Source of the DNA: Auricularia sp. M13 | Lineage: Eukaryota; Basidiomycota; Agaricomycetes; Auriculariales; Auriculariaceae | DNA length: 64,000 nt | Assembly (NCBI GenBank): GCA_037042915.1 | Contig: CM073197.1 | Coordinates: 2,914,001 to 2,978,000, forward strand | Direction of reading: 5' to 3' | In this document: piece by piece, positions 6,641 to 31,344 of the stretch | How positions within the stretch are numbered: the first letter of the stretch is position 1 | Layout of the letters: each line of letters starts with the position of its first letter | Notes under the pieces: model-generated | Told to the model about the DNA's origin: nothing | What the model saw: the letters and a program-made list of their open reading frames with translations, nothing else | Database searches by the model: none | Translations under genes and position numbers: made by a program

Positions 6641-6648
6641 ATATAAAT
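6641..6648 (+). promoter_or_regulatory. TATA box of the two-exon unknown gene, copy 1
   Basis: ATATAAAT lies 55 bp before the ATG at 6696. It directly follows an imperfect palindrome, GACCGGTTGACGCCGGTC. The same TATA box, palindrome and spacing recur in the second copy, which supports function. Confidence 0.6.
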
Positions 6649-6695
6649 TGCGGCTCCGCACACCGTGTCGGGCTCATCCTTCTCCTGTTGCCGTC

Positions 6696-8455: not shown

Positions 8456-9556
8456 GTTGAGTTGAAATACTTATGCGACTCGCCTCCCACGCGCCACGCG
8501 TCTGCCGTGCCACCACCATGCCCCCTGCCTTCTTCCTCCCCTATCGTCACCCAATCTCGCATGCTATCCTCTATTCTGCTTTCCCATCGCCGTCGCTTAT
8601 ATTCTCGTGCTTCCACATCGTCGCTTAAATTCCCGTGCCTCCCGTCTCCCATCGTCGTACATTCCCCTGCTTTCCCATCGCCTTGCATTCCTCTGCTTTC
8701 ATCGTTCCCCGATCCCCGTTGTCGTCCTCGCGCTGTGTCTGGTAAGTACTTGGCTGTCCCGTATGCTCTCCCTCCGTATCCATAGGATAGAACATCCATC
8801 ATCGCTCTCGTCTCGTCTCATTTTTACGCCTGCTTTGCATGTATATCGTTATTCTGACGCTCGTCATTTTGGAATTGCATCTTAGACCTCTCTGAACGTG
8901 CTCATTGATTCATTGGACGTCTGTGCCAAGGAGGAGGGATGAGTTGCTGAGCGTTTGTCTTCGTTTATGAGGATGAATGGGCGAGCCTAATACCGAGCGT
9001 AAAGCCACTGCTCAATACTGTTACGCCAGAAAGCAGAAAGAAAGGTCGCACTCTTGGTGCAGCCCGTGGAAAGCGGAAAGCAGGCGGGTTATGTCCGTAG
9101 TCTTAGATTTCCAAGCACAATCAGATGACGGCGTAAGTGCAAGTGTGAATAACGCCCGCGCATGCCAACATCCCTCGCCGAGTCGGAGCACATCTGTATG
9201 TACGGGACTCCAGAAATCGCAAGACCCAGGTCGTTCAACTCAGGCCCACCAAAAACAACGCACAGAAGAAAAAGTGTATGGCAGAGGAACTTGGAAGAGC
9301 AGCGTGGTGCTTGCGAAAAGCAGGACCGCCCCGCGGAGGCTTCGGCCAGATTATAAGACTGGAGTGTAGCTGCACATGCCAGAGCGACAGAGAAAGCGGG
9401 CAGCGCCGACCAAGAACTCGCCGAAGACCCCGACCAGATTCGCAGTCTCCTTGCTGGCAGACTACGACCAGTCAGTTTGTTTTGGTTTGAAGAATAAATC
9501 AGGTGCCTGTATGTATTAGATCGCCGAGGGAGGGTACAAGAAAAAACGGGCTGCGG
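8456..9556. other. 3' flank of the duplicated gene and intergenic DNA
   Basis: To about 8945 this is pyrimidine-rich 3' flank shared with the 54.5-kb copy. The rest, up to the Tic20-like stop codon at 9557, shows nothing recognisable. Confidence 0.4.
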
Positions 9557-10284
9557 CTACTCGTCCGAGACCCAGCGGTCGGCGAGCTCGCCGGCGTAGG
9601 GCACCTGGAAGCGCGCGAGGTCGCCGATTGCGGCGTCTTGGTATGCGCGGAAGCTGGGCGGGTGGGCGTCAGCAAGAGGTCGCAGTCAGGAATGGGCGGT
9701 GCGCACGCGAGGTAGAGCGAGACAACGACGAGCAGGAGGGTGGTGAGGACCGTCAGGAAGGTCCAGAAGTGCAGCAGGTGCTCGAACAGCAGCAGGAGGA
9801 GCAGCGGCGAGGAGACCAGGGCTGATTGGTATGCTGCGCGGTTGTCAGTGGTGACGACGGCGACGACGGGCAGGACGGACCGTGGAAGCGGACATAGTCG
9901 TTGTGCGTCTCCAGTATCAGCAGGGCCAGTGCTGCACATCGTCAGCGTCGGCGTCGGCGAGCACGACTGAGGCGCACCAGAGAACGGGCCGGCCAAGTAG
10001 GCAACGGCGGCGAGGACGTCGACGCGCCATCCAAAGCGCGTCTCCCACATATTATTCGGGTTCGCGCTCTCGTCTGCCAGTGCGGCGGAGCTGGAGCCGG
10101 CGGCGGTGGCAAAGGTGGGGATGCCGCCCGCCTGGTAGGACATGCTGCCCGTCGGCGCCGCGGCGGGCGTGCTGGGGAACCAGGGGCGCTGGCGCTGGGC
10201 GAGGGCCGCGGGGTCGTCCGGCGGCGGCGTGTAGGCGGCGAAGGACGCAAAGTGCTGGGACGCGCTGCCCGCCGTGCTCGTCAT
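9557..10284 (-). CDS. Tic20/DUF4870-like multi-spanning membrane protein (complete copy)
   Basis: Four exons, 10284-9978, 9931-9881, 9833-9707 and 9653-9557, join in frame to give 193 residues. Introns are 45-53 bp with GTGCGC or GTCCGT donors. Residues 1-80 are a Pro/Ser/Ala-rich cytosolic tail. The core starts at [20 protein letters not shown] and continues with [17 protein letters not shown], a Leu-rich pair of membrane segments and [21 protein letters not shown], ending ADRWVSDE. This is the pattern of a small fungal membrane family related to Tic20/DUF4870, with about four membrane spans. Its role in fungi is not known to me. It is transcribed divergently from Arp1, with start codons 49 bp apart. 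This is the only one of three copies with the native C-terminus. Confidence 0.75.
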
Positions 10285-10333
10285 GGACAATGAGGACGGC
10301 TCCGGCCGCTGCCGACGCCCGCACTCCGAGTCG
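10285..10333. promoter_or_regulatory. 49-bp divergent start-to-start spacer, Tic20-like/Arp1 copy A
   Basis: Only 49 bp separate the start codons of the divergent genes. The 5' leaders or promoters must therefore overlap the opposite gene or its transcript. The spacer is GC-rich without a TATA box. Length is exactly 49 bp in all three units, with a few substitutions in units 2 and 3. Confidence 0.6.
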
Positions 10334-11924
10334 ATGTCTGCGGAATACGACGATGTCCTGACGAACCAGCCCGTCGTCATCGACAATGTGCGCGGCGTTC
10401 TTCCCCGTCGTTCGTCGCCGGCGCTTACGCGTGCTGACGCTGGGGGCGCAGGGCTCGGGCACGATCAAGGCCGGCTTTGCGGGCCAGGACCATCCCAAAT
10501 GCTTCTTCCCGTCGTTGTACGCGCGCGTTACCACTGCTTCGCGCGTTGCTCACTGCTACCGACAGCGTCGGGAGGCCAAAGCACACGCGCGTGCTCGCCG
10601 GCGCGCTCGAGGGCGACGTCTTCATCGGCCGGCGCGCGCAAGAGTTCCGCGGCCTGCTCAAGATTCGCTACCCCATGGAGCACGGCATCGTCGTCGACTG
10701 GGACGACATGGAGCGCGTCTGGTCCTGGGTCTACTCCGAGGAGCTCGGCACGTTGTCGGAGGAGGCGCGTCTCCGTCTTAACCTCGCCGTCGCCGACGCT
10801 GACGCTCTGCTCGCAGCACCCAGTCCTGCTCACCGAGGCCCCGCTCAACCCGCGCAAGAACCGCGAGCTCACCGCCCAGATCTTCTTCGACACCTTCAAC
10901 GTCCCCGCCATGTACATGAGCGTCCAGGCCGTCCTCGCGCTCTACTCGTCCGGCCGCACCACCGGCATCGTCCTCGACTCGGGCGACGGCGTCACGCATG
11001 CCGTGCCCGTCTTTGAGGGATTCAGCATGCCGCATGCTATACGGCGGGTGGATGTTGCTGGGCGGTAAGCTGTCCGTATGTTGCGAATGGGCGACTGACA
11101 TTGCTTGCAGAGACGTCACGGACTACCTCCAACTGCTGCTCCGCAAGGCCGGCCACCACCTGCACACGACCGCCGAGCGCGAGGTCGTCCGCACGATCAA
11201 GGAGAAGACGTGCTACGTCGCGCTCGCGCCGCAGAAGGAGGAGAAGGAGACCCAGGGTGCGCGCCGCCGTTTCTTTCTTCCTGTCCCTCTTTCCCCTCCC
11301 GTGAACCTCGGCTGACGCCTCGCCCTCGCCCCGCATAGGCCGCTCAGAATCCTTCACGCTCCCCGACGGGCGCGCGGTGCAGCTCGGCGCGGAGCGCTTC
11401 CGCGCGCCCGAGATCCTGTTCAACCCCGAGCTCATCGGCGAGGAGTACGCGGGCGTCCACCAGGTCGTCGTCGACTCCATCAACCGCGTCGACCTCGACT
11501 TGAGGAAGTCGCTGTTCAGTAATGTCATCCTGAGCGGGGGGAGTACGCTGTATCAGGGTGAGTGCTTGGCTCTGGCTCGACGATAGCGCACTCGACGCGC
11601 AGCGGCGGAGAGCGTGGAGCCTGCGCGCTGGATGAGCCGTGGGTGCGCTGCACTCCTCTGCTCGGCGGAGGAGAGTGCGGACTCTTCTGCGTAGCAGTAG
11701 AGTGTGGGGACTACCCCGCCGCTGTGGAGAGGACTGTGGACCGTTCCGTCACGGCAGCCTCACCCGCTGCGCAGTGTGGATTATGGTCAGACCTGACGCC
11801 CCGCCCCTTTTGTGCAGGCTACGGCGCGCGGCTGCTGAACGAGGTCAAGAAGCTCGCGCTGAAAGACGTCAAGATCAAGATCTACGCGCCGCCCGAGCGC
11901 AAGTACTCGACCTGGCGGGCTTGA
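10334..11924 (+). pseudogene. Arp1 (centractin), copy A: 3'-truncated by a 19-bp deletion
   Basis: Seven exons: 10334-10387, 10452-10516, 10566-10764, 10817-11064, 11111-11256, 11339-11557, 11818-11924. They encode 345 residues. The first exon matches the Arp1 N-terminus (NQPVVIDN), followed by [60 protein letters not shown] and [14 protein letters not shown]. These are actin-fold nucleotide-binding elements typical of dynactin Arp1 rather than actin. In exon 7, a 19-bp stretch present in copies B and C is missing. The loss lies between short CTGG repeats, removes the WIGGSILA segment and leads to STWRA and a stop. The last exon is also absent, because segment X starts at the intron 7 donor. 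Intron 3 starts with GC, not GT. Exon differences from B and C appear mainly synonymous, so decay is recent. Confidence 0.85.
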
Positions 11925-14900
11925 ATACGTTCAAAAAGGCGCGTCCTGACTCCATTTCGATACTTTATTTGCGAAGTTGCCTGCGACTATCGGACTCCGA
12001 ACGTGCACGCTGCGTGAGACCGCGTCCAGCGCGCGCTCAACATGCGCGCGAAGCTATTCGCTGACATTTGGGCCTGCGAGCGCGAGCATGGTGAGCTTAT
12101 TCGCTACATGGATCTGCGCAGTGCGCCGATCATTCCAGCTGCTGTCGCGAATGGCTCGTCGCGCGGCCATTTCGTCGCAATGTGCGGTTTCGCACACAGC
12201 GTGACGACGACATCAATAGGCTGTATTACGCCCTGTTTGCCATGCGCGCCCAATCGATTTGGTGAGTCCTCCAGCATGCGTTCCCACTCCCGCGCTGACC
12301 ATTTCATCTAGCGACACAGTCACGCCTTATGGGCGCGTTATTCATCGCGGACAATTATGGCCCGATGCCCACGCACACCTCCCGGGCGTCATACGAGCCG
12401 AAACGCGAGCCAGCGAGCATTGCGGTCGACTCGTCGCAAGGATCCGCGCGGAGCGCTGATCGTTCCCAGATGCCAACGAGAATATCTCATTGCACGCCGA
12501 ATACGTCGCCGTTAGCGACTTGGTGCACACCCGGGCGACCGCGCCGACTGGGGCTATGACGCGCTGCTTTTCAACTGCGCCCATCACACACATACGCCCG
12601 TCCGCTCGGATTTCTGCGTGCGCGCTGACATCTTCCGCTCATCGTCGTAATAGACAACGACGGCGCTATCTGCAACTCGGAAGGCGTTTGCGCGATGGCC
12701 GACATCATGGTCCGCGCTCAATGCCAACCGAATCGCAAGCCTAGCGGCCTCGCGCGGATATTCGCAAAGAGGATCAGCGCTCGGCGCTGATCATTTCTGG
12801 CTGTCTGCGCGAATATCTCGTTACGCGGTCAGTTCGTCACTTTTTGCGATTTCGAGCACGCGCTGACGGGGCTCTAGATGGGCGCTACGACACCCCGGCG
12901 CCAGAAAATACCCAGCTGCGTCGGTGCGTCTGATAATGGGACTTTCCGTTTGCTAGCTCACGTTTTCACTCAGAGGCGAAATACGCGCTATTTGCGCGCT
13001 CGGAACGGCGGAAGACGACGGCACGGTCTCGCGACACGCCCCTGGGGCCTCGCACCAGCTCATACGCGGAACGCGCGCCGGCGCGTCGAAATGGACTCGA
13101 ACGCGGCTGGCCAAAATGTCCGCAACACACTGCGCGCTCGGACGCGACGCGCGCTCTGCGGCTCGGACGTGCGCACGCTGTGCACGCTCGCACGCTCGAT
13201 GTGCAAGAAAAACGTAGAAATCGACTCACTGCGCCGGTTCACCGTCCGCCCGGCTCGTCTCCGTCCGCGCCGAGGAGCTGTCAGGCGCGGTCAGGCAATG
13301 CAGAAATCGAGCTGGGTGATGCACGGTCGGTGCGTACCTTTTGCGATGTGGTCGAGGCGACGACGCTGATTTGCCGCCTGCGTCACAATCGGTACGGTCA
13401 GCGACGGGTCGGCGCGCGGGTTGAGTGCTACATCGAGCGTGTACATAGGATAGCCATGTGTATGTATATACGAATGCAATAGAGTCTTTGACCCCACCTG
13501 TGACGGACGCGACGAGCGCGTCGGCCTCAACAAGCACGTTCGATGCGGGCGCGAGTGCAGTGCTCAAGCGCGCAGGCGAGGAGCACAGGCAGGGAGAGTA
13601 GCCTGTATAAATGATGAGCGGTACGCAGCGGTGCAGGCGTGGCTGGGAATGGGGGAAAGTGAGGGGAAAGTGCGAACGGGGGAGGAAGGGACTTTGCGGC
13701 ACGCGGCGCACGAGCGCGCACCTTCTATACGCTGAGCAATGACAGCAGTGCGTCATCGCCTGCGGTGTATGGACCTGAGTGCGCAAATCCAACCACGTCT
13801 CAGCTTGAGTGAGAGGGTGCTTCGCGGGAGGTTTGACAGCGTGAGGATGATCGGACATGTCGAACTCGAGCGAACTGCACACCTGCGCCGCTCCCTCCCT
13901 CTCCGCCCTGCATCTCACGTCCAGCACCTCATAGCAAGTAAGCGCGCAGTCTACGTAGTAGGCGCCGGTGAGCAAGAGTGCGCAGGGCGAGACGGGGCAC
14001 GACAGTCGTTCCCACCGTTCGAACCTCCCGCGATGCAGCGCGATGCACGCGCTTCCAGGCACGCGCTTCTCGTGCTTCTCGGACGTCTGACAGCGGTGAA
14101 CTTGGATTTCCCGACGGGAGATCGAGGGATGGTTGGGAATGCGCGCGTTTCGCGACTTGCCACTGGCACGCCACCCTTTGCTTCGCCGTCCCTCGCCTGC
14201 TGCTATCTACTTCAGCCTCGTGTATTCAGAGCTCCCGCAGAGTGTAATACAGTGACGGCATGAAGATTGGCGCACCGTGCGGCTGGAATTAGACCGTGGC
14301 AACTTGATCAGAGGGGCGAATTCACGCAATCCCACTGCGAGTTGAACATTTTCCCGAGCGAGGCGTTGCGCTGGAACTGTATTACATCAAACAAAGCATC
14401 TAGTACTGGCCGTGGTACACGGATTAGCGCCCACGAGGAAGAGGGCGAGTGGGATTAGTAGGTGCGGAGAGTGCGGGGCAGAAACGCATACCCCAGCATC
14501 TCCGCTGTACCGCGAGCTGCTGGCCCCCAGAGCCCAACCCAACCCGCGATCCGCGCATCCAGGCACGTCAGTTGGCGTCTGACGTTTGACATGACAGACT
14601 TAAGCCAGGGAGCGAGACCTGTGGGCGCAGAATCGGGCCTGGTTGAGTACTGCGCACATCTCATGCGTTGCGCCAGGTTCCTCGATCGCGCTCTTCGCTG
14701 TCGTTTCAGCGTTTCTTCCTCTCTTACGTGCATGAGCTGCTAATTCTGCATGCATACAAGGAGTGAATGACGAGCTATGACGGAATGGAGAGTGGCTGCA
14801 CGCGGGACTAGCGTCGAGGTGCGATTGCAACGGCCAACTTCCCTTGCTGCAGACATCCCGTCGCCATCTCTCGTCTCAGCGCCTTCAAATCCCGGGTACA

Positions 14901-16042
14901 AAGTAAAACCAATGAATTCATAGTGTTAAAACCCCTTTTAATCGCCTGAGAGTCCAGAGTGCGAAGGGTAGGGAGCGGCGATGATGCAAACCAACCATTC
15001 CGCCGCTGCGCCATCCACAGAAGCGCAAGAGAAGCGCCAGTCATCCAGGAACAGTTTCTTCCGCCTGACGTAGAGCATTACAGTGCAAATGAGGCTGAGA
15101 TCGAGGGAGGTTGGGTTTGCGCGGTTTCTGCGTATCGCGCGGTTCCCAACAGCAGCTTCGCCTTCGCCTCCCTCACTCATGGCTTCTCTGTCAGTGTCAG
15201 TTTCAGACTGGTTTGCCCGGCGCAGATGTATGGAGTGAATAGGTTCGATGATGACGCATTACACGCACGAGGGATGGTCGCAGGCAGTGCTTTGCTGTGT
15301 CAAAGGGGCACTCGTGAGCTAGTGCTTCTAATGTTGTGCTCTGCAGCATGATCTCAGATCTTTGAATACCGCAAATAGTGTGAATAATGTAGAGCCCAAA
15401 TGAATACAAATGAGTGCTAGTAATCGTGGGATGAGCTCGGCGGACGCGGGGGAGAGCTCTGCTGTACACAACCCAATTCCGCAGCGATGCAATTCGCACC
15501 CCCACACGCAAGCGATCGAAGCGCTGCTCATCCAGGCACAATGTTTGACGCATGACATTGCTTCCAAAGGGCGTTGACATGACACATTGGCGCGTGGGAA
15601 TGGGGTGGTTGAGAGCTGGCGGACTGGTTGTCTGGACTCCAAGTTCCCGATCGCGCGCCGCGGGGCAACGTTTCAGCAGATTTTGGCCCCTTGAGAAAGT
15701 AATTGAGAGAGCCCAGAGGCGTTCCAGCGATGACATCATGGGTTGAGTCTGCATTTGCGTTGCGAAGTAGTCGATTTGGCCGTACTTCGCCGTACTTCGC
15801 CGTGCGCCTTACGTGCGGCGCCAACAGAGTCAATTCGCATCTTGAAGTTCAACTCAGTGAGTAGCCCTGCAATTCTCGCTGTCTCAAACGTTCATGTAGC
15901 TGCAGCTTCTTGCTGCAACTATCCAGGATCGGCAGATTTGCGTGGCGACCCCGGATTTGCACGGTTTGAATCCAATGCTCGCCCACGTGCTGCAGATCCC
16001 GGATTCCAATTTATTGAATAAGCGCCCGTACCTGCAGCTTGA

Positions 16043-16062
16043 ACGCCTTTTAAAAGGCGTAG
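16043..16062. repeat. Perfect 18-bp palindrome
   Basis: ACGCCTTTTAAAAGGCGT reads the same on both strands. It lies about 300 bp upstream of the candidate transcript start in X1 and recurs in X2 near 25518. Confidence 0.5.
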
Positions 16063-16287
16063 ATCCAGAATCGGAGAAGCTGTCGCGGCCTGTCCGCGCG
16101 CTCGCAATCTCGTAACGGGGCTGGCAGCGGATCGGGTGTGCTGTCACCGGCGGACGTCTCGAGCGGAGCAGTGACATCTCGATCGCGGGCGAAGCTTCGC
16201 AGCAGCGGAGGGTCCGACGATCCCAACCGACGTCTCTGCGTTTGAAAACTTTTCAAACTTCCCGACACGTCGTTTCCTCCCGCCAGG

Positions 16288-16296
16288 CTTATAAGG
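16288..16296 (+). promoter_or_regulatory. TATA-like box in segment X1
   Basis: CTTATAAGG lies about 45 bp before an ATG at 16338. The same sequence is in X2. It is the best promoter candidate within X. Confidence 0.35.
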
Positions 16297-16337
16297 CCAG
16301 CCTCGACACACTTTATTCCCACTGAATCCACTCGCCT

Positions 16338-17806
16338 ATGCTCGCATTCTGCCACCCCACCGTCGTGCTGCCCGATGAGCGCGTCAGTTTTGGCCCCGCC
16401 CTCTCGCTCACGTGAGTTGCCGTGACTTTTTTCGCCAGACCCTGCTCGCATCCACCACATATCCCCCCTCATGATCATTCACGGCCTTCATCGTCAACGC
16501 GTTGACTGAGGCTGCTCCATCACGTGACTCGACCGCCCCCCTGCTGCCGCAACCATTGCTGGTGTGGACTAGTCTGACTCTGTTCACACAGACCCAGTCC
16601 TCGTCGTAGCTGCACGACGTGCAGCCACACGCCCTCGCGCTGACTCTCGTCGCTTGCTACCGGTGAGCGCTCTTTACCCTGCTTTTCTCCACCCGCGAGG
16701 CTGACCGCCATTCCGCAGATCGTCGTCCGACTTCCAACCATCGCTCAATGTAAACGTACCGTGAGTCCACTCTGCGTATCGCTGGAGGACCTGAATTTGA
16801 CGTCTTACCTCTGCAGCGGTGCCCTCAGAGTCGCGCGAGCGCACGCCGGCAAACTCCGCAGGTTGACTCTGTACCACAACGTGCAACCTGAACGACGCAA
16901 CACCGCGCTGAACAACCGCTCGGGCTCAACATCTGATGAGGTGAGATATGCGTTGCCTTTCTCGCCAGCGGTGTTGCTGACTACTCCGTCCGATATTGCA
17001 GCTGCACGCGCCGACCGCGAGCTTCCCGCTGAACGCCCGCCGGCGATGCGAGCACTGAGCGCGACTCCGATATCTCCGCGTTGCGTTGGAACGTAAGTCA
17101 GCGCTCTTTTTCTCTCGTAATGTCCAACGCTTGCTCAATCAGATTCATTCATTGCAGCTATCTGACGACATCGGCAGCGGCGTCGCGGACACTGTCGAGC
17201 CAACGGTGTACCTCTGCGCCGCGCTGGGCACCATGGAACTCTGATCCTGCGATTTTAGAACGTGAGTCATGCGTTTAATTTCTCAGTAATGTCCAACGCC
17301 TGTTCCAGACCATCATGTTATCCTGCGGCTGTAGACAACTTGACGGCATCGGGCGCCGACGCGACGGAGGACTCAGAAGTCGCGCTGTGGCGTTTGGCGG
17401 GAAATCAACAACGTAAGAAGTTCGATAAGTCATCCCTTTCAGTAATGTCCAACGCTTGTTCTTTCAGGTTAGTCCAGCCATCGCATTCCGACGCTGCTCC
17501 GCGCTGGCGGCGGCGGATACCCCAGACGGCGTCGCGGCGGACGCAGACTCGTTGCGGCGATGCTGTATGAATCGCCTCAGTGAGTCTCTTTTCAGCCGTG
17601 TTCAGAATTCCCAGGCTCATTCTTTGTCGTTCGTAGACTCGTCTGACGTAGTCCTGCAGCTGGCGCAGGACGTCGATCGGTGCTGCAGTGTCCGCATTGG
17701 TAAGTGCACAACGATTTGGATCTGTACACGACCTCTATTCTGACGTGACATGCAGATTCTCGCGGTGTTTCGCGCGATACAAGTCAACTCGGCGGCCTCG
17801 TCTGAC
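16338..17806 (+). other. Candidate spliced transcription unit in X1, coding status unclear
   Basis: A TATA-like box and an ATG (MLAFCHPTVV...) are followed by a run of canonical splice pairs: about 16662-16717, 16761-16816, 16941-17000, 17093-17157, 17262-17308, 17413-17467, 17581-17636 and 17700-17755. Donors are GTGAGY or GTAAGN and acceptors are YAG. Several intervening exons have attractive frames, such as DNLTASGADATEDSEVALW, AADTPDGVAADADSLRR and SSDVVLQLAQDVDRCC, rich in Asp and Ala. I could not join all exons into one open frame, and no domain is recognised. It may be a fast-evolving or decaying gene, or a spliced non-coding RNA. X2 carries the same structure at +9475. Confidence 0.3.
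17093..17467 (+). repeat. Three consecutive introns sharing an introner-like motif
   Basis: Introns 17093-17157, 17262-17308 and 17413-17467 all follow an exon ending in AAC and begin GTRAG. All contain the block GTAATGTCCAACGCYTG, followed by YTC and a nearby CAG acceptor. Unrelated spliceosomal introns should not share about 17 bases at the same relative place. The pattern is what introner elements (introns spread by copying) produce. It recurs in X2 near 26568-26943. Confidence 0.5.
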
Positions 17807-18929
17807 CGCGGCCGCAACCCTCAACTCTGGCAACCGCGTCACGCCGCGGCTGCGCTAATAGGAGGGGACCCACCGCCCAGCCGTCGACCAACACCGCCGT
17901 CCGTGCGAGGTCGTCCCCGCTGCTGACGGTGCAGACTCCGTGCAACGCGCCGCCGTGACACTCACGCGTGAGTTTTGGCGGACCCCTATGCGATGTCGTG
18001 TTTCTCACATGCACCAGCTGCGCGGATAGTCGTCCTTGACGCCGATCGCCGACCGCAATGATGTCGGTGCGCATTATCGACTTCTGTCACCCCCGCCAAT
18101 GCTAACATGTTGTAGTAGCAAGATACCCGCCGCAGGAACTCGATGCTCGCTGCCAGCTTGGAGACGGACTCGGGGACCGCGCGAGAGGCCCCTGCGCGCA
18201 CGATTCAGCCGCGGTTCCTCGCCGATTCCGTCCCCGCCCCCGCTGGGACAACACCTCCCCGAGTTCGCGTTTTCCAGCGTCGTCAGTCGGCAGCGGAACA
18301 TCCAGTCGGATCCCGGGCCTGCTGCTGCGTTGCAGTCGGCACAACGGCTCCGACAGCGCGCGGCGTCGCGTTCGACGCTCCGAGCATTCCGCCACGCGTT
18401 GGCTGGTCTACAGCATCTCTCAAGTCTCATATCCATTGGTCCCGCGCGCTGGACCCCCCATCTTGCGCCGTTGCGGAGATCGATGCCGGTCTGCGCGCCC
18501 GAGACCTTCTGCATTCACGGCCACCTGCCCGTGTCGCATCTCCCCGCACTTCGGCGGCGGCGCGCGTGTCTCGACAGCTATGCGGACTCGGTGGCCACAT
18601 TTGGAAGACGGGTGAGTGGCTCTCAATCTGAACTTCTGCGCGATGCTGATCCGATATGGAGGTAGTCGTCCTTGACGGCCCATGCATCTGGACGGTCTCC
18701 GGCCGCGCAGACCTCACGCAACGGCGCCATAGTCGTCCTTGACACCACGGTCGGCGCTAATGCCGGAAACTTGCCGGTTTCACCCATTCGTGAGTTTTCG
18801 ACGTTTCCCTCACTCACAAAATTCTGAGAACCCGTAGATTATGAAGGCAGTCATCCTTGGAGCCGTCCAGGACGACGACGGAATATTTTTTATTCCAATT
18901 TCGTATGTTTTTGTTTTCTTGGCCCAGCT

Positions 18930-19834
18930 TCATCTGCGACTCACGGAGCCTCCAGCCAGCCAAGAACGAGGCCGATAGCTATTTTCTGCGTTTTTCTGCG
19001 ACTCGTTTTGTCTTGCACGCCACAGCTGTCGCGCGCACATTACTGTACTCGTCCGCCGCCTGTCAGTAGATAGCATTGAAATATGACAGGCCCGGGCGGT
19101 GGACATATGCGTATGTCCACCGTCCGGGTACTGTACCGCGCCCAGAGGGGGAATCCCTGTCAGTTTGAATTTCTGGCCACCCGCGGACTTGCCTTGGTTT
19201 TTTGTCGATAGCTCAGGCGAGTTTCGACGGGCGTACGGCGCGCTTATCGCCTGCGCGGACGCCACGGACGGAGCAAAGAGTCGTCTATTGCCATTGACAG
19301 TATGTACACGATCCGCGGTCAGGAAGGTCCAGAAGGGCAGCAGGAGGAGCAGCGGCGAGGAGACCAGGGCGGATTGGTATGCTGCGCGGTTGTCAGTGGT
19401 GACGACGGCGACGACGGGCAGGACGGACCGTGGAAGCGGACGTAGTCGTTGTGCGTCTCCAGTATCAGCAGGGCCAGTGCTGCACATCGTCAGCGGCAGC
19501 GTCGGCGAGCACACGACTGAGGCGCACCAGAGAACGGGCCGGCCAAGTAGGCAACGGCGGCGAGGACGTCGACGCGCCATCCAAAGCGCGTCTCCCACAT
19601 ATTATTCGGGTTGGCGCTCTCGTCTGCCAGTGCGGCGGAGCTGGAGCCGGCGGCGGTGGCAAAGGTGGGGATGCCGCCCGCCTGGTAGGACATGCTGCCC
19701 GTCGGCGCCGCTGCGGGCGTGCTGGGGAACCAGGGGCGCTGGCGCTGGGCGAGGGCCGCGGGGTCGTCCGGCGGCGGCGTGTATGCGGCGAAGGACGCAA
19801 AGTGCTGGGACGCGCTGCCCGCCGTGCTCGTCAT
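18930..19834 (-). CDS. Chimeric Tic20-like protein, copy B (native N-part, new C-part)
   Basis: Exons 19834-19528, 19479-19429 and 19381-18930 join in one open frame of 269 residues. The first 140 residues match the complete Tic20-like protein through [24 protein letters not shown] and a shortened Leu-rich segment ending FWTFLT. Six residues (FEHLLH region) are missing compared with copy A. At 19318 the unit boundary is crossed, and the remaining about 129 residues come from segment X and resemble nothing. The third and fourth membrane-region blocks and the native C-terminus are absent. It may be a non-functional by-product of the duplication, but the frame is unbroken and identical in copy C. 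Confidence 0.55.
19091..19128. repeat. Hairpin with 17-bp arms near the end of X1
   Basis: The arms CCCGGGCGGTGGACATA and its near-perfect reverse complement (one mismatch) flank the loop TGCG. It lies within the 3' part of the chimeric Tic20-like frame, about 190 bp from the unit junction. It could be a cruciform or an RNA terminator-like hairpin. Confidence 0.6.
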
Positions 19835-19883
19835 GGACAATGAGGAAAGGACCGGCCGCTGCCGACGCCCGCACTCCGAGTCG
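19835..19883. promoter_or_regulatory. 49-bp divergent spacer, unit 2
   Basis: Same position and length as the spacer at 10285-10333, with a small cluster of substitutions (GGAAAGGACC instead of GGACGGCTCC) that is shared with unit 3. Confidence 0.55.
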
Positions 19884-21537
19884 ATGTCTGCGGAATACGA
19901 CGATGTCCTGACGAACCAGCCCGTCGTCATCGACAATGTGCGCCGCGTTCTTCCTCCTCGTCGTTCGTCGCCGGCGCTTACGCGTGCTGACGCTGGGGGC
20001 GCAGGGCTCGGGCACGATCAAGGCCGGCTTTGCGGGCCAGGACCATCCCAAATGCTTCTTCCCGTCCTTGTACGCGCGCGTTGTTCATTGCGACTGCTGC
20101 ATATATTGACTGCAGCCAGCGTCGGGCGGCCAAAGCACACGCGCGTGCTCGCCGGCGCGCTCGAGGGCGACGTCTTCATCGGCCGGCGCGCGCAAGAGTT
20201 CCGCGGCCTGCTCAAGATTCGCTACCCCATGGAGCACGGCATCGTCGTCGACTGGGACGACATGGAGCGCGTCTGGTCCTGGGTCTACTCCGAGGAGCTC
20301 GGCACTTTGTCGGAGGAGGCGCGTCCAGTCCATTCAACGGCGCCGACGCTGACGCTGACGCTCTGCTCGCAGCACCCAGTCCTGCTCACCGAGGCCCCGC
20401 TCAACCCGCGCAAGAACCGCGAGCTCACCGCCCAGATCTTCTTCGACACCTTCAACGTCCCCGCCATGTACATGAGCGTCCAGGCCGTCCTCGCGCTCTA
20501 CTCGTCCGGCCGCACGACGGGCATCGTCCTCGACTCGGGCGACGGCGTCACACATGCCGTGCCCGTCTTTGAGGGCTTCAGCATGCCGCATGCTATACGG
20601 CGGGTGGATGTTGCTGGACGGTACGGTGTTCATATACCGCGACTGACTGGCTGACATTGAGCTACGCAGAGACGTCACGGACTACCTCCAACTGCTGCTC
20701 CGCAAGGCCGGCCACCACCTGCACACGACCGCCGAGCGCGAGGTCGTGCGCACGATCAAGGAGAAGACGTGCTATGTCGCGCTCGCGCCGCAGAAGGAGG
20801 AGAAGGAGACCCAGGGTGCGCGCTGCCGTTTCGTTCTTCCTTCCCTCCATCATCCCTTTCTTGTCGTCTCTCTTTCATTCTTTCCGTCTCTCGCTGCTCG
20901 AGTGAATGTCTTGCCCCTTGGCCGACTTTCTCGCCGTGGACCTCGGCTGACGCCTCGCACAGGCCGCTCAGAATCCTTCACGCTCCCCGACGGGCGCGCG
21001 GTGCAGCTCGGCGCGGAGCGCTTCCGCGCGCCCGAGATCCTGTTCAACCCCGAGCTCATCGGCGAGGAGTACGCGGGCGTGCACCAGGTCGTCGTCGACT
21101 CCATCAACCGCGTCGACCTCGATTTGCGCAAGGCGCTGTTTAGTAATGTTATCCTGAGCGGGGGGAGTACGCTGTATCAGGGTGAGTAGCACGTGTGCCG
21201 TTGCGCTCTTTTCGGAGTGCAGAGTGCAGGCCGTACCTATCCGCTGCAGGCGGTGCTGACGCCCCGTTCAGGCTACGGCGCGCGGCTGCTGAACGAGGTC
21301 AAGAAGCTCGCGCTGAAAGACGTCAAGATCAAGATCTACGCGCCGCCCCAGCGCAAGTACTCGACCTGGATCGGCGGCTCGATTCTGGCGGGCTTGAATA
21401 CGTTCAAAAAGGCGCGTCCTGACTCCATCTCAATACTTTATTTGCGAAGTTGCCTGCGACTATCCGACTCCGAACGTGCACGCTGCGTGAGACCGCGTCC
21501 AGCGCGCGCTCAACATGCGCGCGAAGCTATTCGCTGA
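19884..21537 (+). CDS. Arp1 (centractin), copy B: native C-terminus replaced
   Basis: Exons 19884-19937, 20005-20069, 20120-20318, 20373-20620, 20670-20815, 20963-21181 and 21272 onward. The actin fold is intact through [17 protein letters not shown] at 21411. The final exon of the intact gene (encoding [11 protein letters not shown]...) is missing, because segment X2 begins 6 bp into intron 7. Unless another acceptor is used, the frame reads through to a stop at 21537, adding a basic 42-residue tail that starts [12 protein letters not shown]. Introns 2, 4 and 6 differ completely in sequence from those of A and C, although exon sequence is nearly the same. Intron 6 is 90 bp here against about 260-270 bp in A and C. 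Intron 3 is a GC-AG intron. Loss of the last conserved actin-fold segment makes full function doubtful. Confidence 0.75.
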
Positions 21538-24500
21538 CATTTTGGGCCTGCGAGCGCGAGCATGGTGAGCTTATTTGCTACGTGGATCTGCGCAGTGCGC
21601 CGATCATTCCAGCTGCTGTCGCGAATGGCTCGTCGCGCGGCCATTTCGTCGAAATCTGCGGTTTCGCACACAGCGTGACGACGACATCAATAGGCTGTAT
21701 TACGCCCTGTTTGCCATGCGCGCCCAATCGATTTGGTGAGTTCTCCAGCATGCGTTTCCACTCCCGCGCTGACCATTTCATCTAGCGACACAGTCACGCC
21801 TTATGGGCGCGTTATTCATCGCGGACAATTATGGCCCGATGCCCACGCACACCTCCCGGGCGTCATACGAGCCGAAACGCGAGCCAGTGAGCATTGCGGT
21901 CGACTCGTCGCAAGGATCCGCGCGGAGCGCTGATCGTTCCCAGATGCCAACGAGAATATCTCATTGCACGCCGAATACGTCGCCGTTAGCGACTTGGTGC
22001 ACACCCGGGCGACCGCGCCGGCTGGGGCTATGACGCGCTGCTTTTCAACTGCGCCCATCACACACATACGCCCGTCCGCTCGGATTTCTGCGTGCGCGCT
22101 AACATCTTCCGCTCATCGTCGTAATAGACAACGACGGCGCTATCTGCACTCGGAGGGCGTTTGCGCGATGGCCGACATCATGGTCCGCGCTCAATGCAAC
22201 CCGAATCGCAAGCCCAGCGGCCTCGCGCGGATATTCGCAAAGAGGATCGGCGCTCGGCGCTGATCATTTCTGGCTGTCTGCGCGAATATCTCGTTACGCG
22301 GTCAGTTCGTCACTTTTTGCGATATCGAGCACGCGCTGACGGGGCTCTAGATGGGCGCTACGACACCCCGGCGCCAGAAAATACCCAGCTGCGTCGGTGC
22401 GTCTGATAATGCGACTTTCCGCTTTCCGGCTCACAATTTCACTCAGAGGCGAAATACGCGCTATTTGCGCGCTCTGCATGGCGGAGGACGACGGCACGGT
22501 CTGGTGACACGCCCTTCGGGCCTCGCACCAGCTCATACGCGGAAAACGCGCCGGCGCGTCGAAATGGACTCGAACGCGCGGCTGGCCAAAATGTCCGCAA
22601 CACACTGCGCCTCGGACGCGACGCGCGCTCTGCCGCTCGGACGCGCGCGCACTGTGCACGCTCGCACGCAAGATGTGCCAAAAAAACGAAGAAATCGACT
22701 CACTGCGCCGGTTCACCGTCCGCCCGGCTCGTCTCCGTCCGCGCCGAGGAGCTGTCAGGCGCGGTCAGGCAATGCAGAAATCGAGCTGGGTGATGCACGG
22801 TCGGTGCGTACCTTTTGCGATGTGGTCGAGGCGACGACGCTGATTTGCCGCCTGCGTCACAATCGGTACGGTCAGCGACGGGTCGGCGCGCGGGTTGAGT
22901 GCTACATCGAGCGTGTACATAGGATAGCCATGTGTATGTATATACGAATGCAATAGAGTCTTTGACCCCACCTGTGACGGACGCGACGAGCGCGTCGGCC
23001 TCAACAAGCACGTTCGATGCGGGCGCGAGTGCAGTGCTCAAGCGCGCAGGCGAGGAGCACAGGCAGGGAGAGTAGCCTGTATAAATGATGAGCGGTACGC
23101 AGCGGTGCAGGCGTGGCTGGGAATGGGGGAAAGTGAGGGGAAAGTGCGAACGGGGAGGAAGGGACTTTGCGGCACGCGGCGCACGAGCGCGCACCTTCTA
23201 TACGCTGAGCAATGACAGCAGTGCGTCATCGCCTGCGGTGTATGGACCTGAGTGCGCAAATCCAACCACGTCTCAGCTTGAGTGAGAGGGTGCTTCGCGG
23301 GAGGTTTGACAGCGTGAGGATGATCGGACATGTCGAACTCGAGCGAACTGCACACCTGCGCCGCTCCCTCCCTCTCCGCCCTGCATCTCACGTCCAGCAC
23401 CTCATAGCAAGTAAGCGCGCAGTCTACGTAGTAGGCGCCGGTGAGCAAGAGTGCGCAGGGCGAGACGGGGCACGACAGTCGTTCCCACCGTTCGAACCTC
23501 CCGCGATGCAGCGCGATGCACGCGCTTCCAGGCACGCGCTTCTCGTGCTTCTCGGACGTCTGACAGCGGTGAACTTGGATTTCCCGACGGGAGATCGAGG
23601 GATGGTTGGGAATGCGCGCGTTTCGCGACTTGCCACTGGCACGCCACCCTTTGCTTCGCCGTCCCTCGCCTGCTGCTATCTACTTCAGCCTCGTGTATTC
23701 AGAGCTCCCGCAGAGTGTAATACAGTGACGGCATGAAGATTGGCGCACCGTGCGGCTGGAATTAGACCGTGGCAACTTGATCAGAGGGGCGAATTCACGC
23801 AATCCCACTGCGAGTTGAACATTTTCCCGAGCGAGGCGTTGCGCTGGAACTGTATTACATCAAACAAAGCATCTAGTACTGGCCGTGGTACACGGATTAG
23901 CGCCCACGAGGAAGAGGGCGAGTGGGATTAGTAGGTGCGGAGAGTGCGGGGCAGAAACGCATACCCCAGCATCTCCGCTGTACCGCGAGCTGCTGGCCCC
24001 CAGAGCCCAACCCAACCCGCGATCCGCGCATCCAGGCACGTCAGTTGGCGTCTGACGTTTGACATGACAGACTTAAGCCAGGGAGCGAGACCTGTGGGCG
24101 CAGAATCGGGCCTGGTTGAGTACTGCGCACATCTCATGCGTTGCGCCAGGTTCCTCGATCGCGCTCTTCGCTGTCGTTTCAGCGTTTCTTCCTCTCTTAC
24201 GTGCATGAGCTGCTAATTCTGCATGCATACAAGGAGTGAATGACGAGCTATGACGGAATGGAGAGTGGCTGCACGCGGGACTAGCGTCGAGGTGCGATTG
24301 CAACGGCCAACTTCCCTTGCTGCAGACATCCCGTCGCCATCTCTCGTCTCAGCGCCTTCAAATCCCGGGTACAAAGTAAAACCAATGAATTCATAGTGTT
24401 AAAACCCCTTTTAATCGCCTGAGAGTCCAGAGTGCGAAGGGTAGGGAGCGGCGATGATGCAAACCAACCATTCCGCCGCTGCGCCATCCACAGAAGCGCA

Positions 24501-25812
24501 AGAGAAGCGCCAGTCATCCAGGAACAGTTTCTTCCGCCTGACGTAGAGCATTACAGTGCAAATGAGGCTGAGATCGAGGGAGGTTGGGTTTGCGCGGTTT
24601 CTGCGTATCGCGCGGTTCCCAACAGCAGCTTCGCCTTCGCCTCCCTCACTCATGGCTTCTCTGTCAGTGTCAGTTTCAGACTGGTTTGCCCGGCGCAGAT
24701 GTATGGAGTGAATAGGTTCGATGATGACGCATTACACGCACGAGGGATGGTCGCAGGCAGTGCTTTGCTGTGTCAAAGGGGCACTCGTGAGCTAGTGCTT
24801 CTAATGTTGTGCTCTGCAGCATGATCTCAGATCTTTGAATACCGCAAATAGTGTGAATAATGTAGAGCCCAAATGAATACAAATGAGTGCTAGTAATCGT
24901 GGGATGAGCTCGGCGGACGCGGGGGAGAGCTCTGCTGTACACAACCCAATTCCGCAGCGATGCAATTCGCACCCCCACACGCAAGCGATCGAAGCGCTGC
25001 TCATCCAGGCACAATGTTTGACGCATGACATTGCTTCCAAAGGGCGTTGACATGACACATTGGCGCGTGGGAATGGGGTGGTTGAGAGCTGGCGGACTGG
25101 TTGTCTGGACTCCAAGTTCCCGATCGCGCGCGCCGCGGGGCAACGTTTCAGCAGATTTTGGCCCCTTGAGAAAGTAATTGAGAGAGCCCAGAGGCGTTCC
25201 AGCGATGACATCATGGGTTGAGTCTGCATTTGCGTTGCGAAGTAGTCGATTTGGCCGTACTTCGCCGTACTTCGCCGTGCGCCTTACGTGCGGCGCCAAC
25301 AGAGTCAATTCGCATCTTGAAGTTCAACTCAGTGAGTAGCCCTGCAATTCTCGCTGTCTCAAACGTTCATGTAGCTGCAGCTTCTTGCTGCAACTATCCA
25401 GGATCGGCAGATTTGCGTGGCGACCCCGGATTTGCACGGTTTGAATCCAATGCTCGCCCACGTGCTGCAGATCCCGGATTCCAATTTATTGAATAAGCGC
25501 CCGTACCTGCAGCTTGAACGCCTTTTAAAAGGCGTAGATCCAGAATCGGAGAAGCTGTCGCGGCCTGTCCGCGCGCTCGCAATCTCGTAACGGGGCTGGC
25601 AGCGGATCGGGTGTGCTGTCACCGGCGGACGTCTCGAGCGGAGCAGTGACATCTCGATCGCGGGCGAAGCTTCGCAGCAGCGGAGGGTCCGACGATCCCA
25701 ACCGACGTCTCTGCGTTTGAAAACTTTTCAAACTCCCCGACACGTCGTTTCCTCCCGCCAGGCTTATAAGGCCAGCCTCGACACACTTTATTCCCACTGA
25801 ATCCACTCGCCT

Positions 25813-27282
25813 ATGCTCGCATTCTGCCACCCCACCGTCGTGCTGCCCGATGAGCGCGTCAGTTTTGGCCCCGCCCTCTCGCTCACGTGAGTTGCCGTGA
25901 CTTTTTTTCGCCAGACCCTGCTCGCATCCACCACATATCCCCCCTCATGATCATTCACGGCCTTCATCGTCAACGCGTTGACTGAGGCTGCTCCATCACG
26001 TGACTCGACCGCCCCCCTGCTGCCGCAACCATTGCTGGTGTGGACTAGTCTGACTCTGTTCACACAGACCCAGTCCTCGTCGTAGCTGCACGACGTGCAG
26101 CCACACGCCCTCGCGCTGACTCTCGTCGCTTGCTACCGGTGAGCGCTCTTTACCCTGCTTTTCTCCACCCGCGAGGCTGACCGCCATTCCGCAGATCGTC
26201 GTCCGACTTCCAACCATCGCTCAATGTAAACGTACCGTGAGTCCACTCTGCGTATCGCTGGAGGACCTGAATTTGACGTCTTACCTCTGCAGCGGTGCCC
26301 TCAGAGTCGCGCGAGCGCACGCCGGCAAACTCCGCAGGTTGACTCTGTACCACAACGTGCAACCTGAACGACGCAACACCGCGCTGAACAACCGCTCGGG
26401 CTCAACATCTGATGAGGTGAGATATGCGTTGCCTTTCTCGCCAGCGGTGTTGCTGACTACTCCGTCCGATATTGCAGCTGCACGCGCCGACCGCGAGCTT
26501 CCCGCTGAACGCCCGCCGGCGATGCGAGCACTGAGCGCGACTCCGATATCTCCGCGTTGCGTTGGAACGTAAGTCAGCGCTCTTTTTCTCTCGTAATGTC
26601 CAACGCTTGCTCAATCAGATTCATTCATTGCAGCTATCTGACGACATCGGCAGCGGCGTCGCGGACACTGTCGAGCCAACGGTGTACCTCTGCGCCGCGC
26701 TGGGCACCATGGAACTCTGATCCTGCGATTTTAGAACGTGAGTCATGCGTTTAATTTCTCAGTAATGTCCAACGCCTGTTCCAGACCATCATGTTATCCT
26801 GCGGCTGTAGACAACTTGACGGCATCGGGCGCCGACGCGACGGAGGACTCAGAAGTCGCGCTGTGGCGTTTGGCGGGAAATCAACAACGTAAGAAGTTCG
26901 ATAAGTCATCCCTTTCAGTAATGTCCAACGCTTGTTCTTTCAGGTTAGTCCAGCCATCGCATTCCGACGCTGCTCCGCGCTGGCGGCGGCGGATACCCCA
27001 GACGGCGTCGCGGCGGACGCAGACTCGTTGCGGCGATGCTGTATGAATCGCCTCAGTGAGTCTCTTTTCAGCCGTGTTCAGAATTCCCAGGCTCATTCTT
27101 TGTCGTTCGTAGACTCGTCTGACGTAGTCCTGCAGCTGGCGCAGGACGTCGATCGGTGCTGCAGTGTCCGCATTGGTAAGTGCACAACGATTTGGATCTG
27201 TACACGACCTCTATTCTGACGTGACATGCAGATTCTCGCGGTGTTTCGCGCGATACAAGTCAACTCGGCGGCCTCGTCTGAC
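25813..27282 (+). other. Candidate spliced transcription unit in X2
   Basis: Same TATA-like box, ATG, splice-site series and introner-like introns as 16338-17806 in X1, with practically no differences. Coding status is equally unclear. Confidence 0.3.
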
Positions 27283-28404
27283 CGCGGCCGCAACCCTCAA
27301 CTCTGGCAACCGCGTCACGCCGCGGCTGCGCTAATAGGAGGGGACCCACCGCCCAGCCGTCGACCAACACCGCCGTCCGTGCGAGGTCGTCCCCGCTGCT
27401 GACGGTGCAGACTCCGTGCAACGCGCCGCCGTGACACTCACGCGTGAGTTTTGGCGGACCCCTATGCGATGTCGTGTTTCTCACATGCACCAGCTGCGCG
27501 GATAGTCGTCCTTGACGCCGATCGCCGACCGCAATGATGTCGGTGCGCATTATCGACTTCTGTCACCCCCGCCAATGCTAACATGTTGTAGTAGCAAGAT
27601 ACCCGCCGCAGGAACTCGATGCTCGCTGCCAGCTTGGAGACGGACTCGGGGACCGCGCGAGAGGCCCCTGCGCGCACGATTCAGCCGCGGTTCCTCGCCG
27701 ATTCCGTCCCCGCCCCCGCTGGGACAACACCTCCCCGAGTTCGCGTTTTCCAGCGTCGTCAGTCGGCAGCGGAACATCCAGTCGGATCCCGGGCCTGCTG
27801 CTGCGTTGCAGTCGGCACAACGGCTCCGACAGCGCGCGGCGTCGCGTTCGACGCTCCGAGCATTCCGCCACGCGTTGGCTGGTCTACAGCATCTCTCAAG
27901 TCTCATATCCATTGGTCCCGCGCGCTGGACCCCCCATCTTGCGCCGTTGCGGAGATCGATGCCGGTCTGCGCGCCCGAGACCTTCTGCATTCACGGCCAC
28001 CTGCCCGTGTCGCATCTCCCCGCACTTCGGCGGCGGCGCGCGTGTCTCGACAGCTATGCGGACTCGGTGGCCACATTTGGAAGACGGGTGAGTGGCTCTC
28101 AATCTGAACTTCTGCGCGATGCTGATCCGATATGGAGGTAGTCGTCCTTGACGGCCCATGCATCTGGACGGTCTCCGGCCGCGCAGACCTCACGCAACGG
28201 CGCCATAGTCGTCCTTGACACCACGGTCGGCGCTAATGCCGGAAACTTGCCGGTTTCACCCATTCGTGAGTTTTCGACGTTTCCTCACTCACAAAATTCT
28301 GAGAACCCGTAGATTATGAAGGCAGTCATCCTTGGAGCCGTCCAGGACGACGACGGAATATTTTTTATTCCAATTTCGTATGTTTTTGTTTTCTTGGCCC
28401 AGCT

Positions 28405-29309
28405 TCATCTGCGACTCACGGAGCCTCCAGCCAGCCAAGAACGAGGCCGATAGCTATTTTCTGCGTTTTTCTGCGACTCGTTTTGTCTTGCACGCCACAG
28501 CTGTCGCGCGCACATTACTGTACTCGTCCGCCGCCTGTCAGTAGATAGCATTGAAATATGACAGGCCCGGGCGGTGGACATATGCGTATGTCCACCGTCC
28601 GGGTACTGTACCGCGCCCAGAGGGGGAATCCCTGTCAGTTTGAATTTCTGGCCACCCGCGGACTTGCCTTGGTTTTTTGTCGATAGCTCAGGCGAGTTTC
28701 GACGGGCGTACGGCGCGCTTATCGCCTGCGCGGACGCCACGGACGGAGCAAAGAGTCGTCTATTGCCATTGACAGTATGTACACGATCCGCGGTCAGGAA
28801 GGTCCAGAAGGGCAGCAGGAGGAGCAGCGGCGAGGAGACCAGGGCGGATTGGTATGCTGCGCGGTTGTCAGTGGTGACGACGGCGACGACGGGCAGGACG
28901 GACCGTGGAAGCGGACGTAGTCGTTGTGCGTCTCCAGTATCAGCAGGGCCAGTGCTGCACATCGTCAGCGGCAGCGTCGGCGAGCACACGACTGAGGCGC
29001 ACCAGAGAACGGGCCGGCCAAGTAGGCAACGGCGGCGAGGACGTCGACGCGCCATCCAAAGCGCGTCTCCCACATATTATTCGGGTTGGCGCTCTCGTCT
29101 GCCAGTGCGGCGGAGCTGGAGCCGGCGGCGGTGGCAAAGGTGGGGATGCCGCCCGCCTGGTAGGACATGCTGCCCGTCGGCGCCGCTGCGGGCGTGCTGG
29201 GGAACCAGGGGCGCTGGCGCTGGGCGAGGGCCGCGGGGTCGTCCGGCGGCGGCGTGTATGCGGCGAAGGACGCAAAGTGCTGGGACGCGCTGCCCGCCGT
29301 GCTCGTCAT
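28405..29309 (-). CDS. Chimeric Tic20-like protein, copy C
   Basis: Exons 29309-29003, 28954-28904 and 28856-28405 give the same 269-residue chimera as copy B: about 140 native residues, then about 129 residues encoded by segment X2. It faces the intact Arp1 copy C across the 49-bp spacer, so the divergent promoter of the only full Arp1 gene now drives a truncated partner. Confidence 0.55.
28566..28603. repeat. Hairpin with 17-bp arms near the end of X2
   Basis: Identical copy of the hairpin at 19091-19128, in the same relative place. Confidence 0.6.
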
Positions 29310-29358
29310 GGACAATGAGGAAAGGACCGGCCGCTGCCGACGCCCGCACTCCGAGTCG
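29310..29358. promoter_or_regulatory. 49-bp divergent spacer, unit 3
   Basis: Start-to-start spacer in front of the intact Arp1 copy; same length as in the other two units and the same substitutions as in unit 2. Confidence 0.55.
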
Positions 29359-31344
29359 ATGTCTGCGGAATACGACGATGTCCTGACGAACCAGCCCGTC
29401 GTCATCGACAATGTGCGCCGCGTTCTTCCTCCTCGTCGTTCGTCGCCGGCGCTTACGCGTGCTGACGCTGGGGGCGCAGGGCTCGGGCACGATCAAGGCC
29501 GGCTTTGCGGGCCAGGACCATCCCAAATGCTTCTTCCCGTCCTTGTACGCGCGCGTTACCACTGCTTCGCGCGTTGCTCACTGCTTCTGACAGCGTCGGG
29601 AGGCCAAAGCACACGCGCGTGCTCGCCGGCGCGCTCGAGGGCGACGTCTTCATCGGCCGGCGCGCGCAAGAGTTCCGCGGCCTGCTCAAGATTCGCTACC
29701 CCATGGAGCACGGCATCGTCGTCGACTGGGACGACATGGAGCGCGTCTGGTCCTGGGTCTACTCCGAGGAGCTCGGCACCTTGTCGGAGGAGGCGCGTCC
29801 AGTCCATTCAAGCTCGCCGTCGCTCACAACCACCGCAGCACCCAGTCCTGCTCACCGAGGCCCCGCTCAACCCGCGCAAGAACCGCGAGCTCACCGCCCA
29901 GATCTTCTTCGACACCTTCAACGTCCCCGCCATGTACATGAGCGTCCAGGCCGTCCTCGCGCTCTACTCATCCGGCCGCACCACCGGCATCGTCCTCGAC
30001 TCGGGCGACGGCGTCACGCACGCTGTGCCCGTCTTTGAGGGATTCAGCATGCCGCATGCTATACGGCGGGTGGATGTTGCTGGGCGGTAAGCTGTCCGTA
30101 TGTTGCGAATGGGCGACTGACATTGCTTGCAGAGACGTCACGGACTACCTCCAACTGCTGCTCCGCAAGGCCGGCCACCACCTGCACACGACCGCCGAGC
30201 GCGAGGTCGTGCGCACGATCAAGGAGAAGACGTGCTACGTCGCGCTCGCGCCGCAGAAGGAGGAGAAGGAGACCCAGGGTGCGCGCGCCGCCGTTTCTTT
30301 CTTCCTTCCCTCCATCCGCCCTTTCTTTCTTCCCGTCTCTCGCCCCTCGGCTGACCTCTACTGACGCCTCACCCTCGCCTCGCACAGGCCGCTCAGAATC
30401 CTTCACGCTCCCCGACGGGCGCGCCGTGCAGCTCGGCGCGGAGCGCTTCCGCGCGCCCGAGATCCTGTTCAACCCCGAGCTCATCGGCGAGGAGTACGCG
30501 GGCGTCCACCAGGTCGTCGTCGACTCCATTAACCGCGTCGACCTCGATTTGCGCAAGGCGCTGTTTAGTAATGTCATCCTGAGCGGGGGGAGTACGCTGT
30601 ATCAGGGTGAGTGCTTGGCTCTGGCTCGGGACGCTTGCGCACTCGATGCGGGGCAGAGGAGAGCGTGGAGCCTGCGCGCTGGATGCGAGCCGTGGGTGCG
30701 CTGCACTCTTCTGCTCGGCGCAAGGGAGCGCGGATTCTTCTGCGTAGCAGTGGAGTGTACGGACTGCTCGGCCGCTGTGGCAGGCAATGCGGACTGCTGC
30801 GCTACGGCGTCCTTCTCCGCTGCGCATTGGTAGTGGATTATTGACGGTGCTGACGCGCCACCCCTTTTCTGCGCAGGTTATGGCGCGCGGCTGCTGAACG
30901 AGGTCAAGAAGCTCGCGCTGAAAGACGTCAAGATCAAGATCTACGCGCCGCCCGAGCGCAAGTACTCGACCTGGATCGGCGGCTCGATTCTGGCGGGCTT
31001 GAATACGTTCAAAAAGGCGCGTGCGATGTTCACTTTTAGCCTTTGTCTTTTGTTGTCGCGCGCTCGTTTGCTCCGCGTCGCGTCGCCCGAAGTAACGCAG
31101 CATCTTCGGTCGCGCCGCTGCACTTGCACTTCTGCTCGCGCTCTCTCGCCCACATTCCTCTTTCCGCTTCCACATCATCCTCGTGCCCTCGTCTTAGCCA
31201 CAGTTTTCACTCATTGCGCCTTTTCGCGTCTCTAATCCCACATCGAATTGTTCTCGCCCGTGCTGACTCTCCCCGCAGATGTGCGTGACGGCGGAGGAGT
31301 ACCAGGAGGACCCGGACATCATCCACAAGAAGATCGGACTCTAG
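29359..31344 (+). CDS. ARP1: Arp1 (centractin), dynactin actin-related protein: intact copy C
   Basis: Eight exons: 29359-29412, 29480-29544, 29594-29792, 29839-30086, 30133-30278, 30388-30606, 30877-31016 and 31279-31344. They give 378 residues, the usual Arp1 length. Arp1 forms the short filament of dynactin, the cytoplasmic cofactor that links dynein to cargo and membranes. Seen in sequence: N-terminal [19 protein letters not shown] (phosphate loop 1), [67 protein letters not shown] (phosphate loop 2), [34 protein letters not shown] and a last exon with [16 protein letters not shown]. Two introns begin with GC: intron 3 (29793, GCGCGT) and intron 7 (31017, GCGCGT, 262 bp). Both are required to stay in frame. 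It is the only copy with the native last exon. Confidence 0.93.

Follow-up and report, generated by a model that had tools for sequence, protein, structure and literature searches.

How does a chromosome come to carry one divergent gene pair three times over, with each of the two genes whole in a single copy, at opposite ends of the row? The question is posed by a 64,000-nucleotide stretch of the genome of Auricularia sp. M13 (assembly GCA_037042915.1, contig CM073197.1, positions 2,914,001 to 2,978,000), referred to here as the window, in which a gene for the dynactin protein Arp1 (centractin) on the plus strand and a partner gene on the minus strand form a head-to-tail triplicate at 9557–31344, the units being kept apart by a 7.37 kb filler that occurs twice (X1 and X2). 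The array is a true feature of the assembled sequence. It looks like one of an ordinary kind, a by-product of recombination between unlike versions of the genes or an assembly merge of two genome copies, and not like a new regulatory device. The history that we put first, and hold to be nearly as probable as its negation, is that a two-unit array formed and that unequal crossover between divergent haplotypes may then have converted it into a mosaic of three units.

Three units with shared junctions

Between 9.8 and 31.0 kb, self-comparison of the window displays a repeat period of about 9.5 kb, and self-BLAST pairs 11812–21187 with 21266–30612 at 97.9% identity over 9,406 columns, which is far above chance, as well as 9789–11944 with 28812–31022 (92.6%) and 9789–11563 with 19337–21187 (91.6%). 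The three tandem units reported in an earlier, sequence-only reading of this DNA are thereby confirmed. In all of them 49 bp separate the start of the partner gene from the start codon of Arp1, the first bases of partner and Arp1 being 10284 and 10334 in unit 1, 19834 and 19884 in unit 2, and 29309 and 29359 in unit 3.

Unit 1 holds the complete partner gene, of four exons and 193 amino acids (9557–10284, minus strand, with the stop codon ending at 9557 and the splice joins made by hand), followed by Arp1 exons 1–7, cut at the intron 7 donor (10334–11944, plus strand). After X1 (11945–19317, 7,373 bp, with no recognised coding domain), unit 2 consists of partner exons 1–2 and part of exon 3 (19318–19834, minus strand), continuing into X1, and of Arp1 exons 1–7 in an open frame (19884–21417, plus strand), continuing into X2 up to a stop codon that ends at 21537. 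X2 (21418–28792, 7,375 bp) leads to unit 3, where the same piece of the partner gene (28793–29309, minus strand) is accompanied by the complete Arp1 gene (29359–31344, plus strand). The final residues of the partner protein, 162–193, are encoded in unit 1 only, where they match at 9655–9560 (E 3e-89 for the joined match), the other matches to this 3′ portion having E values of at least 0.65; similarly, the C-terminal end of Arp1 is complete in unit 3 only, units 1 and 2 stopping at exons 1–7. The earlier count is thus right: each gene is complete once, and besides these there are two chimeric partner frames and two truncations of Arp1.

The internal junctions lie at the same two places, as had been claimed. 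On the Arp1 side, GCGCGT at 11939–11944 in unit 1 and at 21412–21417 in unit 2 is followed by identical filler, and the GCGCGT of unit 3 (31017–31022) by native intron 7. On the partner side, GTCAGGAAGG begins at 9752 in unit 1, where it is native, and at 19318 and 28793 in units 2 and 3, directly behind the same filler end (positions counted by hand from printed stretches of the sequence). Since every internal junction is common to two units to the base, each most likely arose once. The window holds no runs of N, so there is no gap between the copies.

Mosaic identity and the origin of the middle unit

Tandem duplication of a locus with filler DNA, the explanation offered in the sequence-only reading, fits these shared junctions and is incomplete in that the units are not simple copies of one another, forming instead a mosaic. 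The tract 13216–20082, which comprises the right part of X1 and the left half of unit 2, aligns over 6,865 bases with its counterpart at 22690–29557, the right part of X2 and the left half of unit 3; the two differ by one substitution and five gap columns, the latter representing four length changes in short repeats. To the left of the tract (X-left below), the two fillers show 18 differences in 942 aligned bases and, after those, 26 in 327. The contrast of 1/6,865 with 44/1,269 substitutions is pronounced (Fisher p 6e-35, with tract limits chosen after inspection of the data). The right edge is sharp: after 20082 and 29557, 13 bases into intron 2, unit 2 diverges from unit 3. The left half of unit 2 is consequently that of unit 3, with no substitution in 765 bases, and its right half combines the junction of unit 1 with a third Arp1 body.

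Site patterns, counted with gapped columns excluded, change in the same way along the units. From the partner fragment to the Arp1 start (544 gap-free columns), units 2 and 3 go together in each of the 11 variable columns. Over introns 2–6 and exons 3–7, there are 146 variable columns, of which 84 group units 1 and 3, 37 units 2 and 3 and 18 units 1 and 2, with the remaining 7 different in all three. The Arp1 bodies are roughly equidistant, with 16, 14 and 17 changes at some 248 synonymous sites (6–7%) and 2, 1 and 1 nonsynonymous changes over 341 codons in the three pairs. In 13 of 15 comparisons of introns 2–6 the difference is about 10–28%; identity over aligned bases is 72–89% between units 1 and 2, 79–100% between units 1 and 3, whose introns 4 are identical, and 72–86% between units 2 and 3.

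Amino-acid changes are far fewer than random change would yield, which argues that the bodies diverged mostly as functional genes: none of 20,000 random draws reached so low a number in any of the three pairs, and the deficit is also present among changes unique to one unit (P 0.0001 to 0.0019), in draws that ignore codon bias. Moreover, introns 2–6 of units 1 and 2 differ at 51 of 310 bases, significantly more than the 44 of 1,269 in the X-left behind their shared junction (p 2e-14). Bodies and junction thus do not share one history, and recombination between them must have occurred; because one junction carries two unlike bodies, this recombination must have followed the formation of the junction. 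The three unlike bodies, together with the near-identical tract of 6.87 kb, require at least one later exchange between divergent haplotypes or a merge of haplotypes in the assembly. Gene conversion restricted to exons was suspected at one point, as the exons of unit 2 looked near-identical and its introns did not, and is not claimed after counting; the synonymous difference between units 1 and 2 (16/248) is below that of the introns (51/310, p 3e-4) and compatible with strong codon bias (GC3 0.90–0.91).

In the history that we prefer, a 2.2 kb piece reaching from partner exon 3 to the donor of Arp1 intron 7 would have been duplicated in tandem with 7.37 kb of filler between the copies. To judge from the shared junctions, the product would have been a complete partner gene with a truncated Arp1, then X, then a truncated partner gene with a complete Arp1. 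Later, and most simply, one unequal crossover may have taken place between homologues that carried divergent versions of the array and a common, recent right part of X. The mosaic is observed and the crossover is conjectured from it. Its site would lie in the near-identical stretch over the partner fragment and Arp1 exons 1–2, the conserved 5′ part of the pair, and unit 2 would then join a left half of the unit 3 type to a right half of the unit 1 type from another haplotype. In Schizophyllum commune, a hypervariable basidiomycete, crossovers are reported to favour conserved exons (PMC4209137). Arrays shaped by unequal crossover, such as RCCX/CYP21A2 and Sdic, are alike in their head-to-tail units, shared breakpoints and mosaic identity, and in having complete genes at the outer ends with truncated or chimeric copies inside; what distinguishes the present array is the 7.37 kb filler between units.

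The same mosaic could be an artefact, a reading that we doubt and still take seriously. In a dikaryon or diploid, two haplotypes, neither bearing more than two units, would have been joined end to end, and unit 2 would be a false join of the right-hand copy of one haplotype to the left-hand copy of the other. The synonymous differences of 6–7% between Arp1 bodies are what alleles of an outbred species could show, and a 6.87 kb tract with a single substitution and four short-repeat length changes agrees with it. For the vertebrate assemblies that it examined, a study on false duplications names divergent haplotypes as their main source and sequencing errors as a minor one (PMC9516828), and false heterotype duplications resemble the present case in that divergent haplotypes come to stand as neighbouring paralogues on one scaffold. 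Unlike those duplications, the array is free of gaps, and its X junctions remain even if one unit is false. The window contains no N gap, the junctions still need an array of at least two units, and haplotypes that are identical over 6.87 kb yet 2–8% different alongside need an explanation of their own. The lack of N gaps speaks rather for a real array; the pattern of length changes in the tract can be argued either way.

Several observations weigh against the crossover history. Four of the five differences within the tract are length changes in short repeats, which fits sequencing error on a locus assembled twice, and a merge of haplotypes is expected to produce the same mosaic. The synonymous difference exceeds that of the whole of X-left only weakly (p 0.033; 0.0008 against its first 942 bases). 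Nonsynonymous differences between units 1 and 2 number 2, against 14.8–26.9 expected if X-left records neutral change since truncation (P 5e-5 to 8e-10), and retained function of the truncated copies could also account for so few. Exchange with functional alleles is preferred to retained function because the bodies are older than the adjoining X-left and because unit 1 is frameshifted. Finally, the right half of unit 2 is unlike the Arp1 body of unit 1, so that a third allele has to be invoked. If the array is real, it shows cleanly how alleles of different haplotypes can gather in one tandem array, the breakpoint lying within conserved exons or beside them, and the gene pair is intact solely through the complete genes at its opposite ends; if it is an artefact, gene counts at this locus are inflated. 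None of the titles listed in literature searches deals with this array, which is not to claim its absence from print.

The filler and the formation of the array

The source of X bears on how the array first formed. Among 72,556 plasmid records no megablast match was obtained, a search that is sensitive to near matches only, and a vector or plasmid origin was dropped for lack of a near match. Translated in six frames, with stop codons entered as the letter X, the filler has no Pfam family at E ≤0.1, on which grounds coding or transposon content was likewise dropped; ten long open reading frames (ORFs) in or overlapping it give one sub-threshold match, to DUF3613 (E 0.17). The missing Arp1 exon 8 and the 3′ end of the partner gene have no match in X better than chance, and between X and the flanks no match is longer than 18–23 bp.

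A hairpin with 17-bp arms, 94% complementary, and a 4-bp loop lies near the right end of both X copies (19091–19128 in X1). The idea that it marks a Helitron-like end was given up, as the hairpin falls 189 bp short of the end of X. A 29-bp motif beginning GTAATGTCCAACGC is present in three copies at 17117–17470, spaced 169 and 156 bp. Rfam families at the gathering score and transfer RNAs (ARAGORN) are absent from the window.

Single-crossover integration leaves a fragment without its outer ends on both sides of the foreign DNA. A DNA circle made up of the 2.2 kb fragment and X might accordingly have entered the home locus by one crossover, with the third unit coming from a dimer circle or from a later exchange. 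We regard this as unlikely. Textbook accounts of such an insertion-duplication describe just this product, an end-less gene-pair fragment on both sides of foreign-looking DNA and a complete gene on either outer flank, and matches of no more than 18–23 bp between X and the flanks agree with such an origin. Against it, X is without a detected replication function, vector or mobile-element domain, there are three units and not two, and end-joining with filler yields the same product. The fuller sequence of events, in which natural integration of a circle at the home locus would be followed by exchange between very unlike haplotypes so that three Arp1 alleles came to lie on one chromosome, is just as improbable in our view. 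X may be filler from end-joining or part of a circle that was integrated in a single crossover.

Arp1, its partner and their surroundings

The complete Arp1 of unit 3 has eight exons, the last at 31279–31344, and encodes 378 residues. Among the best 60 of 169 PDB matches, three Arp1 sequences score 563–568 bits over residues 6–375 or 10–375 and actins score at most 479 bits; the higher scores place the protein nearer to Arp1 than to actin over almost its full length. Introns 3 (29793–29838) and 7 (31017–31278) are modelled with a GCGCGT donor, as GC-AG introns, the other five being GT-AG, and the array junction sits directly behind this non-canonical donor of intron 7.

That the whole Arp1 is confined to the last unit, with exons 1–8 there and exons 1–7 elsewhere, bears out the earlier reading, which had gone on to propose that the truncated copies could act as dominant-negative or regulatory forms, an idea for which the support is weak at best, the scarcity of amino-acid changes being the one hint of a function kept. 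For unit 1 the truncation stands and the damage had been understated, as a 19-bp frameshift deletion in exon 7 leads to a stop after 345 residues (stop codon ending at 11924). The copy in unit 2 is open to exon 7 with its splice sites in place, and its predicted product of 398 residues consists of 357 from Arp1 and 41 from X2. Selection might keep it as a truncated, tail-swapped modulator of dynactin, which we think very improbable. Besides the open frame and the splice sites, a single nonsynonymous change among the 10 changes unique to unit 2 speaks for such a role, as do the two nonsynonymous differences from unit 1 where the X-left rate predicts 15–27. Against it, the last 21 residues are lost and replaced by a tail from filler, the copy of unit 1, truncated alike, has decayed through a frameshift, and recent origin from a functional allele accounts more simply for the low amino-acid change. 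The complete genes, the partner in unit 1 and Arp1 in unit 3, probably supply the functions, and the copies that are truncated or chimeric are most likely by-products. The interest of the array lies more in its mosaic of recombined pieces than in any regulators of dynactin that it might provide, and knowledge of dynactin is unchanged whether it is real or an artefact.

The partner protein is small and, by eye, has long hydrophobic stretches. Its earlier designation as Tic20-like could not be substantiated, as the spliced protein has no Pfam match at E ≤0.1, nor at E ≤10 (subject to HMMER filters), and no PDB match at E ≤10; the unspliced frame gives a sole Pfam match, to Wzy_C, which falls short of the cut-off (E 0.011). 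An identical chimeric frame of 269 residues is present in units 2 and 3, assuming no further intron. Over 132 compared shared codons, the partner genes of units 1 and 2 show five differences, all synonymous.

Relatives were looked for in viral contigs, where two candidate stretches yielded none, and in prokaryote contigs, where one of 38 candidates is a relative at 51% identity, too distant to serve as an outgroup. This actin-like match (L001, 294–1415; identity to the present Arp1 in the best segment) covers 1,122 bp for 374 residues. The contig is filed as a metagenome-assembled genome of Deltaproteobacteria and is possibly a eukaryotic contaminant.

Elsewhere in the window, an intact-looking long terminal repeat (LTR) element at 47794–52158 has terminal repeats of 1,024 and 1,023 bp (99.9% identical, with a single gap and not one mismatch), TG...CA ends, a 5-bp target duplication (GTACT) and 2.3 kb inside. 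Four minus-strand ORFs examined in it have no Pfam match, and the element is perhaps non-autonomous and young. A dispersed repeat of 2.3 kb, 85% identical between its copies, occurs at 6305–8611 and at 52374–54647, the second copy starting 216 bp beyond the LTR element; five long ORFs that overlap one or other copy are without a Pfam match. At 33618–34073 there is a minisatellite of about 20 copies of a 23-bp unit, which is also readable as a 70-bp higher-order unit. By its G+C of about 59%, its many short introns and its gene content, the window would probably be assigned to a basidiomycete fungus; this content includes caleosin, jacalin, GH88 and a frame (58681–59889) that matches the RecQ zinc-binding family with 25.5 bits, against a curated cut-off of 25.

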